From a virus: a DNA stretch of 64,000 nucleotides. Positions 1,105 through 8,908 of this stretch are shown in pieces. The stretch lies in IMG/VR virus record IMGVR_UViG_3300044641_002513, positions 1 to 64,000 of that record; one strand, 5' to 3'. The notes beneath the pieces were generated by a model that saw nothing but the letters and a program-made list of their open reading frames with translations, was not told where the DNA came from and searched no databases. The translations under genes were made by a program, and so were the position numbers. How positions within the stretch are numbered: the stretch's first letter is position 1; every line of letters starts with the position of its first letter.

Positions 1105-1944
1105 TTAAAATATGTATCTTATCTTACACCAGCCTATCACCTCTTCAAAAATAGTAGTAAATTCTTTAATGTATTTAGCCTTTAAATCATATCTGTATCT
1201 TAAATTTTCTCCTCCATATTGAGAAGTTTTTATCTCTTGAATATCAGGCCTCCATATTAAATTCTCTCCTTCTAAATTACGTTCTACATTGTTAAGATGC
1301 CTGCCTTTGTTATGGGTTAAGAATATTACCTCAGCTTTTACTGAACTGTTATTCCAACCATGTTCCACAGCAAACCTATTTACTTTTTCAAACAGTTTTT
1401 TGTATTCCTTTAACCAACCGTCAGTTACTATCACAGGACTAAAATTTAAGTGCACTTCGTATCCAGCTTTAATAAAATCTTGCACTGCCCACAACCTATC
1501 TTCTATACTACTTGTTTTAGGTTCTAAAAAATCACTATAAGTTTGAGGCATTAAACTAAACCTAATTCTAATTTTACCTTTAGGGTTAAATTCTAATAAG
1601 TTTTTGTTTACATACTTAGTTGCAAATGAGCCCATAGCTATAGGATGGTTCTTAAAAAATTCAAATATGTACTTCCAACTATGGTGTTTTGCGTGTAAAG
1701 CAAAATCTTCGTTGCACGATAAGTCGTAGGTTATATACTCACTGTGAGTTTGATTAGGTTTTTCTACATCAGTAAAATAAGCGTGTGTGTTAATAGCTGT
1801 TAATATGTCTCCAACATTAGTAGCTACATCTAGTCCTGTAGGTTTGTGTCTTTTTAAGTAACAGTAAAGACAAGAATACAAGCAACCGAACCCAAAACTA
1901 GGAGTAATAAAGTCAGTTGATCTAAAAGATTCCCTTATGACCAT
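1105..1944 (-). CDS. Radical SAM protein, spore photoproduct lyase-like
   Basis: The 279-residue product has the radical SAM iron-sulfur motif CLYSCLYC (Cys 21, 25, 28 from the chosen start), with the spacing and flanking GFGC/YCYL seen in the spore photoproduct lyase (SplB) family. That family uses S-adenosylmethionine chemistry to reverse thymine photodimers. The C-terminal half contains an SPL-like region (RIRFSLMPQTYS, VHLNFSPVIV). The frame is open upstream to 2049, but that part overlaps the end of the GIY-YIG gene. ATG 1944 is the first start after the upstream stop, and this Met is also present in the duplicated 5' fragment at about 2713. A role in UV repair of phage DNA is inferred from the family; substrate specificity cannot be read from sequence. 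Confidence 0.8.
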   Translation of the reverse strand: MVIRESFRSTDFITPSFGFGCLYSCLYCYLKRHKPTGLDVATNVGDILTAINTHAYFTDVEKPNQTHSEYITYDLSCNEDFALHAKHHSWKYIFEFFKNHPIAMGSFATKYVNKNLLEFNPKGKIRIRFSLMPQTYSDFLEPKTSSIEDRLWAVQDFIKAGYEVHLNFSPVIVTDGWLKEYKKLFEKVNRFAVEHGWNNSSVKAEVIFLTHNKGRHLNNVERNLEGENLIWRPDIQEIKTSQYGGENLRYRYDLKAKYIKEFTTIFEEVIGWCKIRYIF

Positions 1945-1957
1945 ACTTTTTCTTACA

Positions 1958-2650
1958 TTATAAGTTATTTTTTTTAAATTTCCATTTATATCCATAAGCA
2001 GTTTTTCTTTTATTTCTACAACAACTACCAATATGACCTGATTTAACATCTTTATTTAATAAAATCAGAGCATCTTTTATGCTTTTAAAAGTCTGTATAT
2101 ATTCATTTTCTAATGAATATTGTTCAACAGGAACAATTATAGCATCAATTGTTTTTTGTGTAACTTCTTTTGATTTTTTTCTACCTGTAGAAGTTATTTT
2201 AATTTTAGCTTTAGCTTCATCTGTATGTTTAAATCCTCTTCTTCCATCAGCTTGTTTTTTTATAGTTTCTGGTTTAAACCAATAACCTCTTTTAGCTGCA
2301 TTTTCTCTTCTAACTTTTTTAGATTTTTCTATTATGTGTTTAGGCATTTTACCTATATTTCCTACACCAGTAATAGCTAGATTATAACCAAATCTTCTAT
2401 GATAAGATTTATATTCCTTTACATAATAATCTTCTCTGTCAATACATTGGTCCAAGAGACATTCTTCAAGTATAATAAAAGAAAAGTTATCTTGTCCATG
2501 CTTTTGCCAAGCATTTTGAAGATAACTATTTTCATGCATACTTTTATTTAGTTTATACTTATGAAGAACAAACCTTTTTGTAATATTAGATGAATAGCCA
2601 ATATATACTTTATTGTCTATTTTGCACTGTATTTTGTAAATTCCAACCAT
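1958..2650 (-). CDS. GIY-YIG homing endonuclease
   Basis: The N-terminus carries the GIY...YIG signature (VGIYKIQCKIDNKVYIGYS), then conserved R/H and E positions (RFVLHKYKLN, LEECLLDQCIDREDYYV). The middle resembles NUMOD3-type DNA-binding repeats (GRRGFKHTDEAKAKI). The C-terminal region (VEQYSLENEYIQTFKSIKDAL) resembles NUMOD1, ending in YGYKWKF, as in mobile segD/F-like endonucleases. An upstream TTG at 2656 is in frame, but ATG 2650 is the likely start. A TATATTTG promoter element ends 3 bases before that ATG region. The gene interrupts the radical SAM gene, with homologous 5' ends of that gene on both sides. Confidence 0.88.
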   Translation of the reverse strand: MVGIYKIQCKIDNKVYIGYSSNITKRFVLHKYKLNKSMHENSYLQNAWQKHGQDNFSFIILEECLLDQCIDREDYYVKEYKSYHRRFGYNLAITGVGNIGKMPKHIIEKSKKVRRENAAKRGYWFKPETIKKQADGRRGFKHTDEAKAKIKITSTGRKKSKEVTQKTIDAIIVPVEQYSLENEYIQTFKSIKDALILLNKDVKSGHIGSCCRNKRKTAYGYKWKFKKNNL

Positions 2651-2753
2651 ATACAAATATAATCAAAATTTCTTTAATAAAATCGGTAGACCTACCAGAA
2701 GGCCTAATTAACATAGACTTTCTGGTAGATTTTGTTATTACCTTTTTTGTCAT
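2651..2753 (-). pseudogene. Stranded 5' end of the radical SAM gene
   Basis: From ATG 2753 the minus strand encodes TRKSMLIRPSGRSTDFI near its start. This aligns with VRKSMVIRESFRSTDFI at the beginning of the downstream radical SAM gene. After STDFI the similarity stops and the frame runs into the GIY-YIG gene and terminates. The nucleotide sequences of the two copies differ mostly at synonymous or conservative positions. I read this as the original 5' end left behind when the GIY-YIG element inserted. It also contains a 9-bp inverted repeat (2692-2700 with 2720-2728). Confidence 0.75.
2654..2661 (-). promoter_or_regulatory. TATATTTG -7 element for the GIY-YIG gene
   Basis: On the minus strand TATATTTG matches the Bacteroidota -7 consensus TAnnTTTG and sits 3 bases before the ATG at 2650. 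This would give a leaderless or nearly leaderless transcript. No clear -33 TTG is visible. Confidence 0.5.
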
Positions 2754-2763
2754 TTTTTTTAAA

Positions 2764-3378
2764 TTATCCAAATTCTCCACTAGGATGTAAACTTTTCTTA
2801 AGTACTAATAAATCAGCTACTTCTTTTGTTAGTATTTCTTTATTTATACTAATTATAGGCCACACTTCTTGTTCCCCTAACACCGCTATTGACCAAGGAT
2901 TACTTAATCTCTTTTCCCAATGGTCTTTTAACACTATTGCTTTATTTAAAATTAAAGGAAGTACTAATGCTTTATCTGAAAAATAGTTATTACCTAGTAT
3001 TAATCTTTTAGCTTCTAAACTTGTCTTAGAATATTTACCTTCTAAAATTAGCTTATAATCTTCTTGATGTTCTTCAGGAATACTAAACACAAATACTACA
3101 TAGTCTTTATTATCATAGTCATCTACATAATTGGGAAAAGCTTGAATAGTAGAATAAAATCTTTCAAAATCTAAATCTCTATAACTTCTACAAACAACAA
3201 AAACATACCCTCTATCATTAAATTTAGGAATATTGCTGTCTGCTAAGTAAGCGTTTAAAAATCTTGATTTATACTTTATCCTTCCCCAGTTATCTAATAT
3301 ATTACAGTCGAAGAGATTTTTAGAAATATTTAATAACGGAAACAAAAATGTTGCTGTTTTTGTATATTTCATCTCCAT
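2764..3378 (-). CDS. Hypothetical protein (204 aa)
   Basis: The start is taken as the ATG at 3378, which overlaps the stop of the upstream nuclease gene (TAATG), although the frame is open to 3429. The protein has alternating hydrophobic strands and charged loops (YVFVVCRSYRDLDFERFYST, YVVFVFSIPEEHQEDYKLI). It lacks membrane segments and cysteine motifs. I do not recognise it. Coupling to the PD-(D/E)XK nuclease suggests a role in DNA processing, but this is inference only. Confidence 0.7.
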   Translation of the reverse strand: MEMKYTKTATFLFPLLNISKNLFDCNILDNWGRIKYKSRFLNAYLADSNIPKFNDRGYVFVVCRSYRDLDFERFYSTIQAFPNYVDDYDNKDYVVFVFSIPEEHQEDYKLILEGKYSKTSLEAKRLILGNNYFSDKALVLPLILNKAIVLKDHWEKRLSNPWSIAVLGEQEVWPIISINKEILTKEVADLLVLKKSLHPSGEFG

Positions 3379-4913: not shown

Positions 4914-6242
4914 TTATACGTTTTTAACTCTGTTAGATATTACTTCTGTCAATTGACATAAAGTATTTCTTAAATCTTGAATAGTTTTTCTAAAAGCATA
5001 CAAACTAATTTCTTTAGGAATAATTTCGTGTTCTTTTAAAGATTCTAGTGGAGTATTCTCAATTAAGTCTTCCAACTCTTCTTGTGTGTACTCTGCATAC
5101 TCTAACTCGAAAGTATTAGTATCAATTGGAATTACTTTACCTTCATCATTGTATTCAATAGTAGCAATTGGTAAATACTCACAACATCTTAGTTTGCCTC
5201 CGTCTGTATAAGGAACGGCAATTACATGCATTGGATTAATCAATACTGCTAAGCCTACCGAGCCAAAATACCCTGATGTTAACCAACTACTATTGGCTGC
5301 GTGTAAACCTCTAGAACAAGTTCTATCTGGGTTTGCATCACATTGTTTACGGTCAATCTTAACAGGTTGTCCTAAGATAATTTCCATACGACCTGTATAG
5401 CCATCTGTGTAAACAGTTTGTTCACTTGCTTCTAAGTTTACAAATTCTACATACAACTCTTGTAAACTACCTTGGTACTCGTACAAATCCTCCTCTTCCC
5501 ACTCTTCTACCCAAAAACCATCTTCGTCTTCATATCCTTTATCTGCTTCGTAAGTTTCATCGTTAACATTTGACCACTTATCTTCGTGCATTAACTCAAA
5601 TTCTTCGTCTTCGTAATTCCATACTACTACAAAGTTTTTAGGACCTCTTTTCTGAGTTTTAATTTTTAACCATTGTTCTGCAACAAATTCGTTTCTTTCT
5701 CGTAAACCTTCGTTTTTAACATTAACATTTCTATAAGCTACAAAGTAACCGCTAGGAGTTAAAGTTAAATCGTTGTTAATTAAGAATTTATACAAATCCT
5801 CTCTACATCTTGGATCAGGATTTAACGCACATAGTCTCCAAAAATTCATCATAGCTGATAAATCTTCTTGGTTATCTCTACGTTTTGCAAACTCTAGTGC
5901 TAAGAACTCAGGCACAGTAATATTAATCCCCTTCATATACAACTTAATGCCTATTACTTCAAAATGCTCATCTCCTAAATTTCTAATACTATCCATCCAA
6001 TCTATAAGACTTTTTTGATTTAGGGCTTTTTTCTCTTCATCTTCTAATCTTTCTTCATCCTTAGTCTTAGAAACTTCAAAACAAGCTATTAAACTTTCTA
6101 CTTCATTATAATCTGATTCATTAGTGTTTAACGCTTTCTCATACAGATTAAGAATGTCTTCATTGCTGTTACAAACTTTTTGGTACATTTTAGAGCCTAT
6201 AGTACAAACTATAGTGTTACCTACTCTCATTGCTTTAATCAT
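4914..6242 (-). CDS. rIIB-like protein
   Basis: This 442-residue protein resembles phage rIIB proteins. It has the segment DLTLTPSGYFVAYRNV in the middle and a conserved CSRGLHAA block toward the end (near residue 310). The central section is strongly acidic (EDEDGFWVEEWEEEDLYEYQ). In T4, rIIA and rIIB act together in lysis timing and exclusion of other phages. Crassvirales genomes commonly carry both. Here the rIIA-like gene lies just upstream, separated by one small gene. The biochemical role is not known. Confidence 0.75.
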   Translation of the reverse strand: MIKAMRVGNTIVCTIGSKMYQKVCNSNEDILNLYEKALNTNESDYNEVESLIACFEVSKTKDEERLEDEEKKALNQKSLIDWMDSIRNLGDEHFEVIGIKLYMKGINITVPEFLALEFAKRRDNQEDLSAMMNFWRLCALNPDPRCREDLYKFLINNDLTLTPSGYFVAYRNVNVKNEGLRERNEFVAEQWLKIKTQKRGPKNFVVVWNYEDEEFELMHEDKWSNVNDETYEADKGYEDEDGFWVEEWEEEDLYEYQGSLQELYVEFVNLEASEQTVYTDGYTGRMEIILGQPVKIDRKQCDANPDRTCSRGLHAANSSWLTSGYFGSVGLAVLINPMHVIAVPYTDGGKLRCCEYLPIATIEYNDEGKVIPIDTNTFELEYAEYTQEELEDLIENTPLESLKEHEIIPKEISLYAFRKTIQDLRNTLCQLTEVISNRVKNV

Positions 6243-6252
6243 ACTTCTTATT

Positions 6253-6510
6253 TTAATTGTTATTTAGTTTTGTTAAATTAATAAAGTTGTCTTTTGGGAA
6301 ATAACTCTCTACACATATTCTTTTTACGTGAGGCAATGTTTCTATTTTTTTTAATGAGTGATTATACACATATTGCCAAGCATCTACATAAATTCCTTTA
6401 TCAGTTATTTTTACTACTTTTTCTTCTAGTAATCTTGCCCATATAGGTCTAAGAATAGTGTCACCTACTTCTATTAGATTGCCAAATCTATCATAATGTT
6501 CTACATTCAT
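6253..6510 (-). CDS. Small hypothetical protein between rIIA- and rIIB-like genes
   Basis: An 85-residue protein beginning MNVEHYDRFGNLIEVGDTIL, with a short beta-rich SH3-like pattern (VGDTILRPIWARLLEEKVVKITDKGIYV in part). It is in the same run as the rII-like pair, with gaps of a few bases. I do not recognise the family. Confidence 0.65.
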   Translation of the reverse strand: MNVEHYDRFGNLIEVGDTILRPIWARLLEEKVVKITDKGIYVDAWQYVYNHSLKKIETLPHVKRICVESYFPKDNFINLTKLNNN

Positions 6511-6514
6511 ATTT

Positions 6515-8908
6515 TTAGCATTTACAGTGTTTAAATTTACTATTAAAATAGATTTTATAGTGAATGTTTAGAGGAAACCTATGTTTAGTTTTAAACTTGT
6601 TTTGTAGATAAATAGCTTCTGCAATAAATTCTACAATACCTCCAATGTTTTTATTAAACCTGTATCCAGAAGTATCTATAAAATCTATAATATCTAACTG
6701 CTCAGAATATCTTAATATTTTAAAGAAATCTTCTTCTATTTTTTTATCAAAACTATTATTTTGTACAGCTAGTTTATAACAAGTGTCTTGTAAAAACTTT
6801 TCATCCCCATATATTCTATTTTCTGCATCTATTAGTTTATTAAACTTTGAAAAAGTATCTGATAACATTTTTAAATCTGAAGAAACAGTAGGGCTTAACA
6901 CTTTAAGTAACTTTATTCTATTTTCATCTGCCAGCATTCTTTTTAACTTACTAAATGCGTCTGAATGGTTTTTATAAAGCTTAACCATACTAACCATTCT
7001 GCGAAAAACTTTATTTTCTTCTGATAAGAAACTTTCCATTGTAACTTGATTTTTTACATTTTTTAATTTTTTTAAATTAGTAGGAGCTACTTCACAATAT
7101 TCTAAATACTTATCTGGAGTTTTTGTAAGAGCTTTATAAGTAAGATATACAAGCCTCATATTTCTATTAACTTCAGGCGTAGCATCATTAGAGTTAAGGA
7201 AAAATAAGGTTCTATTACTACCTAAAAAATCAGATACTTTTCTTTTTTCTGTATTTTTAGAATCCGAAGTATTAAAATAAAACGTAGAAGTTTTAACTTG
7301 AATTTCTGTAGTATCTCTTTTTGCTTTTGTCTTTTTTTGAGATTCTAACCATTCTTTAGTAGGCATTACTTTATCGTAACTAGTAGTTTTATCAATAACT
7401 TCTTTTTGTATTATTTTTTGATAAGCAGTAATAATACCTCTCCACTTGTCTTTTGATACAGTTTTAAGTTTTAACGTACTTACATAATACTTTAAGTATA
7501 ACCTAGTCTTTTTTCTAATAAAAAACAAAACATCTTTTTTAAAAGTGTGTTTAATAAACTTACTTTTACGAGGTTCGTGTTCTTGAGAAATTCTCATTAC
7601 TAGTTGATACGGACTTCTATTTGCTTTTGTTAACAACGCACCTGCATCACCATTATACTTTTGAAATCTAGCAGAAAACTGGCCACTAGTATAGTAGTCA
7701 AAGAATAAACTAGTATAGTCTTTAGGCAACATAAATGCTGCTAAACCTGCATCTTGAAAAGGTTTATAATAATAGCCATTCTCTTGAATAGAAAATAATC
7801 CATTCTGCTTTAAGTTTAAAGCAATTTGATTTTGAGCAAAATATAAAGTAGGAACTTCATTTCTTTTTACATAAAACTCTTCAATTGTACTACATTCTTT
7901 AGAACTTTCTGCCCATCTTTTTCTTAACTCTGTTTCAAATTCTATTAGCTTTTTGTAAATAGCTTCTTTAGTTCTAGGAGTATACTTAACGTCTTCTCTT
8001 GTTTGAATAACATCTAGTTCACCTATTTGAAATTGAAGTGCTACAGGAAAATCTATTCTAGGTATCTCAAGTATCTTCCAATCTATTGGATAAGCTACTT
8101 TACCTAGGCAAATATGCAAATCGTTTTGAGGAGTTTCTCCAGTAGTAGCTAACCACGAATCGCCTTTAATAATCTGAAAGTTATTAGGAATCTCACAGTA
8201 ATAAGAAAAGTAAACATTGTCAAAATAAGCTAACTGTTCTTTACAGTTGTTTCTAAACTTTGCTACATCTTCTATTTCTATATAAACTTTAATCTCCGTG
8301 CCATTTCTTTCTGTTGTTGCCGTTTCTCCAATAATATCTAGTCTAGGACCATTCTCACCTTTTCTTAGCATATAACTATACTCTATGCTATTATATCTAG
8401 TACGAATAAAAACTATATCAGCATAACTTAAACCGCTCTTAGAGCCCATACCGAACGCACCTATCATCGTATTACTTGTTTCTTTAGTAGATTTCAAGTA
8501 ATTAACAAATACATCTTTAATTCTACTTGGAGATAAGCCTACACCAAAATCTTCAGTTGCCCAAAACCAACCTGTATCATCTTTGTCAATAGTAACAATT
8601 ACAGCATCGTCATTAAAAATTTCTACAGATTTTTTTAGAGCTTCTAACTCTTCGATTGGAGCAGTTTGATAGATAGAATATTCGTTTTTAACTTCTTCTA
8701 TCGAGTGCTCTTTAATAAATTTAGCCTCTGCGTGACTGTCAAAACTATTACTAACATATTCTCTTACAACTGCACCAATAGGATTCTTGTAAGGATTTTG
8801 TAGCATATCCCACAGTTTATGCATGTCATGTTTGCTAATAGTAGCATCGTAACCATCAAAAGAAGCATTAGAAGTAAAATCAATTTGTTTTTTTGTTTCT
8901 AATTTCAT
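6515..8908 (-). CDS. rIIA-like protein with GHKL ATPase domain
   Basis: The first 200 residues contain the Bergerat ATP-binding fold. The N box is VVREYVSNSFDSHAEA, the G1 motif is DFGVGLS and the G2 motif is GAFGMGSKSG. The remaining roughly 550 residues are lysine-rich and less conserved. This architecture fits phage rIIA proteins. The rIIB-like partner follows downstream. At 797 residues it is close to T4 rIIA in length. The start ATG overlaps the stop of the primase gene, so expression is likely coupled. rIIA/rIIB proteins are membrane-associated in T4, but no membrane segment is evident here. Confidence 0.8.
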   Translation of the reverse strand: MKLETKKQIDFTSNASFDGYDATISKHDMHKLWDMLQNPYKNPIGAVVREYVSNSFDSHAEAKFIKEHSIEEVKNEYSIYQTAPIEELEALKKSVEIFNDDAVIVTIDKDDTGWFWATEDFGVGLSPSRIKDVFVNYLKSTKETSNTMIGAFGMGSKSGLSYADIVFIRTRYNSIEYSYMLRKGENGPRLDIIGETATTERNGTEIKVYIEIEDVAKFRNNCKEQLAYFDNVYFSYYCEIPNNFQIIKGDSWLATTGETPQNDLHICLGKVAYPIDWKILEIPRIDFPVALQFQIGELDVIQTREDVKYTPRTKEAIYKKLIEFETELRKRWAESSKECSTIEEFYVKRNEVPTLYFAQNQIALNLKQNGLFSIQENGYYYKPFQDAGLAAFMLPKDYTSLFFDYYTSGQFSARFQKYNGDAGALLTKANRSPYQLVMRISQEHEPRKSKFIKHTFKKDVLFFIRKKTRLYLKYYVSTLKLKTVSKDKWRGIITAYQKIIQKEVIDKTTSYDKVMPTKEWLESQKKTKAKRDTTEIQVKTSTFYFNTSDSKNTEKRKVSDFLGSNRTLFFLNSNDATPEVNRNMRLVYLTYKALTKTPDKYLEYCEVAPTNLKKLKNVKNQVTMESFLSEENKVFRRMVSMVKLYKNHSDAFSKLKRMLADENRIKLLKVLSPTVSSDLKMLSDTFSKFNKLIDAENRIYGDEKFLQDTCYKLAVQNNSFDKKIEEDFFKILRYSEQLDIIDFIDTSGYRFNKNIGGIVEFIAEAIYLQNKFKTKHRFPLNIHYKIYFNSKFKHCKC

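Follow-up and report, generated by a model that had tools for sequence, protein, structure and literature searches.

A radical SAM gene near the start of the window (the whole 64,000-nucleotide stretch analysed here, taken from an IMG/VR virus record of 88,896 bases) is interrupted by an insert that, judged from its sequence, is very probably a free-standing GIY-YIG homing element carrying its own 'rescue' for the gene broken by the insertion. On the minus strand, a 221-aa ORF is followed by a 26-codon gene start (2753-2676), the GIY-YIG endonuclease gene (2650-1958) and the radical SAM gene (stop at 1105); the features that we delimited are collected in Table 1. The first-pass annotation had placed the endonuclease between two copies of one gene start, and both copies were found: the peptide RKSMLIRPSGRSTDFI is encoded upstream, in the fragment at 2753-2676, and RKSMVIRESFRSTDFI where the downstream radical SAM gene begins. 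The phage is crAss-like by its tail ring protein (CrAss_Ring_2, 2e-32), which is present alongside terminase, portal and major head protein families. RIIB- and RIIA-like genes (phrog_609 and phrog_612) lie upstream of the radical SAM locus, at window 4914-8908.

Table 1. Features of the interrupted radical SAM locus, by window position
Feature	Position	Strand	Remarks
Complete hybrid radical SAM gene, spore photoproduct lyase-like	1105..1995	-	PF20903 SPL, 7.9e-25
First 48 nt of body past insertion point, diverged from L001/L002	1858..1905	-	
Diverged replacement gene start, VRKSMVIRESFRSTDFI	1906..1956	-	65% nucleotide identity to L001, against 95% for the body
Inserted mobile unit, 770 nt: endonuclease gene and diverged replacement 5' end	1906..2675	-	Absent from L001/L002
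GIY-YIG homing endonuclease, 230 aa	1958..2650	-	I-TevI-like catalytic domain and putative NUMOD C-terminus
Conserved left end of element, AAAGAAATTTTRAYTATATTTGTA	2652..2675	-	Precedes endonuclease start codon
Orphaned native 5' end of radical SAM gene, 26 codons, MTKKVITKSTRKSMLIRPSGRSTDFI	2676..2753	-	Near-identical to L001/L002 start

Almost all IMG/VR relatives of the radical SAM protein are uninterrupted. A comparison with such homologues had been proposed as a check, and the two closest to the window, L001 and L002 (96% and 90% amino acid identity), have a single start and no endonuclease. The window aligns contiguously with both along the upstream gene and as far as codon 26, departing from them at 2676/2675; against L001, successive 12-nt bins from -84 to 0 match at 10, 12, 10, 12, 11, 12 and 12 of 12 positions. 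Since this DNA alignment with uninterrupted genes is contiguous and ends at the junction, the upstream fragment is certainly the native gene start, and neither of the two findings named beforehand as refuting the first-pass interpretation was made. The insert (2675-1906) falls between the Ile codon and the next codon of STDFI^[S/A/T]PSF.

In the 51 nt preceding the insertion point the window is only 65% identical to L001, and identity of about 95% is regained from 48 nt past it. The window's two start copies differ as strongly as had been claimed, with 65% nucleotide and 76% amino acid identity over 51 nt and a dS of about 2.3. Past the insertion point, the 12-nt bins against L001 match at 11, 10, 7 and 7 positions and then at 12; the right boundary in the window is blurred by these roughly 48 nt of divergence, which are likely a co-conversion tract. 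Empty and filled alleles occur in two lineages, namely the window against L001/L002 and the contigs L042/L043 against L068/L070/L100. Among 134 pairs of endonuclease-free genes with a body identity of at least 0.85, none had a 5' end as diverged as that of the window and L001 (0.65) or of L042 and L070 (0.63).

The endonuclease reads from an ATG at 2650 to a stop at 1958-1960. Its GIY-YIG domain (PF01541, 1.2e-8) scores 35.6 bits against a Pfam cut-off of 22.6, the I-TevI catalytic domain 1mk0 matches at 3e-10, NUMOD1 falls just below its cut-off (1.4e-4; 22.4 against 22.8 bits) and NUMOD3 is weak. At full length, the protein also scores above the cut-off of TIGR01453 (1.2e-26) as a 'group I intron endonuclease', and insertion between codons of a conserved motif is typical of intron sites. 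Both observations would suit a group I or group II self-splicing intron, or an intein, with an internal homing gene, the duplicated start being part of the intron. We regard this as highly improbable: between the left junction and the start of the endonuclease there are only about 25 nt, and the second gene start is itself coding sequence, diverged at synonymous sites and in frame with the gene body. Moreover, no Rfam group I or II intron family matched at gathering level in the whole window, and no group I or II intron matched at E<=5 in window 1850-2800 or in L042 950-1950. The endonuclease C-terminus overlaps the downstream gene start in two frames (window 1958-1995), and this overlap is conserved in contig L038 (MxINGNxKKxT..VRKSM). 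At L071:1707-2195, and also in L072, a different GIY-YIG endonuclease, 31% identical, is encoded upstream of a radical SAM gene that belongs to this family and is uninterrupted.

Because the foreign 5' end is joined in frame to the recipient's gene body, the hybrid downstream still encodes a full-length protein, in agreement with the earlier proposal that a coding sequence could be invaded without being destroyed. Candidate starts of the hybrid gene are ATG 1995, which gives a 38-nt overlap with the endonuclease, and ATG 1944; in both the window and L038 an ATG within the last endonuclease codons could start the hybrid frame, and in L042 the frame starts just past the endonuclease stop. The invaded gene is of DNA-repair type. 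Its product scores 87.9 bits with the SPL profile PF20903 (cut-off 27), matches structure 4fhc at 7.7e-18 and has an intact CxxxCxxC motif (GCLYSCLYC); it does not reach the SplB/TIGR03886 equivalog level (303 bits against 437.6 for TIGR03886; 83.5 against 400 for TIGR04070). Comparison of the hybrid and L001 bodies (dN 0.016, dS 0.23) indicates purifying selection on the body of the hybrid gene. The hybrid is the sole copy of the radical SAM gene in the 88.9-kb record, which may be incomplete.

Four further metagenomic contigs carry the element (L038, L042, L043 and L044, with endonucleases of 70-76% amino acid identity), and it is present in several crAss-like and other uncultured phages. 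A scan of the IMG/VR collection found the left end AAAGAAATTTTRAYTATATTTGTA beyond the window only in L042, L043 and L044, and the left junction, ...STDFI followed by this left end, is identical in these three and the window. L044 ends before the downstream gene and L038 begins after the upstream fragment, each displaying one side; as both break off inside the endonuclease, the two start copies are visible together only in the window, L042 and L043. Named phages gave distant protein matches and no near DNA match to the locus, and the bacterial and archaeal genomes searched gave a single endonuclease match, 38% identical. Every locus is a metagenomic contig, which might suggest an assembly chimera, but the same junction recurs in different metagenomes (the window, L042, L043 and L044) with lineage-specific flanks, which contradicts a chimera and leaves it a negligible probability.

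The unit is most sharply defined in L042, where an insert of 792 nt is exactly delimited against the empty L070 and L100. The left flank is identical to theirs up to the insertion point except for one mismatch at the last base (99.7% identity to L070), and after the insert two differing bases precede sequence that tracks L070, so host DNA is back within 2 nt. From these flanks, the unit consists of the endonuclease and a full diverged start (MSLVDRVTRKSMVIRPSGRSTDFI) placed on the recipient's own body. That L042 and L070 share near-identical host DNA on either side of the unit bears out the first-pass annotation's suggestion that the downstream start was brought in with the element. Two homologous starts in tandem on one strand might also be read as a local duplication of the gene start whose copies an endonuclease gene later separated, no mobile unit being involved. 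This is scarcely credible, given that empty relatives have a single start, that L042 and L070 contradict it, that lineages with unrelated flanks carry the endonuclease and start at one and the same nucleotide, and that downstream starts resemble those of other phages more than they do the orphaned one (in L042, 56/66 nt to L098).

The element has moved between lineages, since the L042 and L044 endonucleases share 98.9% nucleotide identity over 369 nt and their 300-nt left flanks only 82%; each flank matches its own empty relative (L070 and L071, respectively) at 99.3-99.7%. Over the 51 nt leading up to the insertion point the window and L038 are 84% identical, against 52% in the next 48 nt, with 66% body identity between their radical SAM genes; only 1.2% of 951 comparable endonuclease-free pairs are as similar. 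The 5' end is thus common to the window and L038 where the gene body is not, so the start segment belongs to the element rather than to the host gene. At the level of sequence, these comparisons establish a precise insertion, a common unit, its horizontal spread and a restored reading frame.

The replacement start had been suggested to be 'recoded'. It is better described as a diverged foreign allele. Purpose-made recoding found no support: the L042 copy closely resembles starts that occur naturally in other phages, as its match to L098 illustrates. The window and L038 replacement starts reach at best 45-46/66 against any natural start found. We also discarded 'RESFRS' as an element-only signature, as L040 carries it without an endonuclease and the L042 and L043 elements carry RPSGRS.

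Two of the contigs have further features in the radical SAM gene. In L038 (610-720), the Cys motif of the body adjoining the element stands in an unusual context, SPSFIMGCAFNCSYCYCKRH; the corresponding sequence in nearly all relatives is SPSFGxGCLYxCxYCY. At L043:1098-2130, and at L031:2180-3200 in the absence of the GIY-YIG element, the gene has a split-intein ('fractured gene') arrangement at the third cysteine of the radical SAM motif. The N-intein (CVTPDTL...) ends in a stop and is followed by an antisense HNH-like ORF (L043 1987-1168); the C-intein starts with a Met of its own and terminates at GILTHN^CYMKRH. Pfam matches are PT-HINT (7e-11) and Intein_splicing (6e-7). As this split intein lies 33 nt downstream of the GIY-YIG insertion site, L043 carries two homing elements; past its intein, it matches L070 at about 99%.

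The copied unit is, in order, the endonuclease and a foreign 5'-end allele in frame with the recipient's body at the insertion point. We propose that the endonuclease would cut the uninterrupted gene of a co-infecting phage near STDFI^[S/A/T]PSF, and that repair of the break would copy the element, with the orphaned native start as the putative left homology arm and the gene body as the right arm. The element's own genome would escape re-cutting because a changed sequence now forms the left half-site next to the native right one. As the two starts differ, the diverged duplicate would recombine poorly with the orphaned start, so that the endonuclease would rarely be deleted. A stable element would necessarily have a replacement 5' end that resists cleavage. 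No CNNNG cut motif was altered in all replacement copies, there was no consistent single motif change, and the cut site was not located; the diverged start may have been carried along as a neutral passenger, with no selection for resistance.

Such neutrality is central to another account, in which the endonuclease was once free-standing immediately upstream of another phage's radical SAM gene and entered by a one-off asymmetric repair, end-joined on the left and homologous on the right. The start would then be a by-product that later spread with the element, and resistance to cutting would be irrelevant. This is consistent with the anatomy of the locus; the downstream starts look natural and complete, having a start codon of their own (MSLVDRVTRKSM... 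in L042), and L098, L078 and L040 provide natural near-matches of replacement starts. A non-resistant start beside the retained native right half-site would, however, leave the element genome cuttable, and we consider this account unlikely. A more far-reaching interpretation, which we hold to be reasonably probable, is a natural phage home-and-rescue element: actively mobile and intron-free, with a cleavage-resistant replacement 5' exon, it would colonise an internal, conserved coding site (the region of the radical SAM motif) with no need of splicing, while the function of the gene is kept.

The closest described precedent is the mobile-ORF (mORF) gene hybrids of fungal mitochondria, known from atp6 of Allomyces macrogynus and from atp6, atp9, cox2 and nad3 of Glomus sp., in which the native gene end is orphaned and the hybrid is expressed (PMC3630166). 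The mORF endonucleases are of the LAGLIDADG type or, in Glomus atp9, GIY-YIG (PMC3630166). As in those hybrids, the invaded coding gene contains a free-standing endonuclease accompanied by a diverged copy of one gene end that is of foreign origin. The window, L042 and L043 share the layout of an endonuclease ORF between an orphaned end and an in-frame diverged duplicate, and the duplicate is nearer to other lineages than to the native copy. Unlike mORFs, which replace the 3' end (C-terminus) in mitochondria, the element replaces the 5' end in tailed phages, and the hybrid gene lies downstream with its own translation start. A case reported for Tremella, as cited in PMC8393795, combines N-terminal duplication with intron mobility and involves introns.

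Among phages, free-standing homing endonucleases are known to split genes, namely mobE in nrdA of Aeh1 and mobA in gene 60 (PMC2988022). These also lie within conserved, functionally critical coding regions, but they leave the gene as two reassembling polypeptides, whereas here the lost end is supplied and one full-length protein is encoded. The element resembles I-TevI of the td intron in its GIY-YIG catalytic domain, and its insertion between codons of a conserved motif, and candidate NUMOD motifs for DNA binding lie at the C-terminus; it differs in that there is no intron, the gene being restored by a carried coding segment instead of by splicing. Engineered home-and-rescue (HomeR) gene drives likewise use a nuclease that homes into its target and carries the replacement part (PMC7968924), although these are a man-made CRISPR system in insects and the likeness is one of logic only. 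We found no phage precedent for a carried replacement gene end in the literature covered, which lay mostly outside subscription journals. Of 60 loci around GIY-YIG relatives that we examined for a two-sided coding duplication, only L042 and L043 were convincing. Other matches were of low complexity or short and due to chance, apart from a direct repeat, probably non-coding, that flanks a distant GIY-YIG endonuclease gene at L049:3700-4700.

The usual view is that a homing gene can reside inside conserved coding sequence only by means of a self-splicing intron or intein, and that it is otherwise intergenic or splits the gene. A homing gene that carries a substitute gene end would add a third option for phages. 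Empty and filled alleles are available from two lineages and the unit is exactly delimited, so that homing, rescue and immunity are each directly testable; diverged duplicate gene ends flanking a nuclease are a pattern that can be searched for elsewhere. The element would also offer a natural parallel to engineered rescue gene drives.
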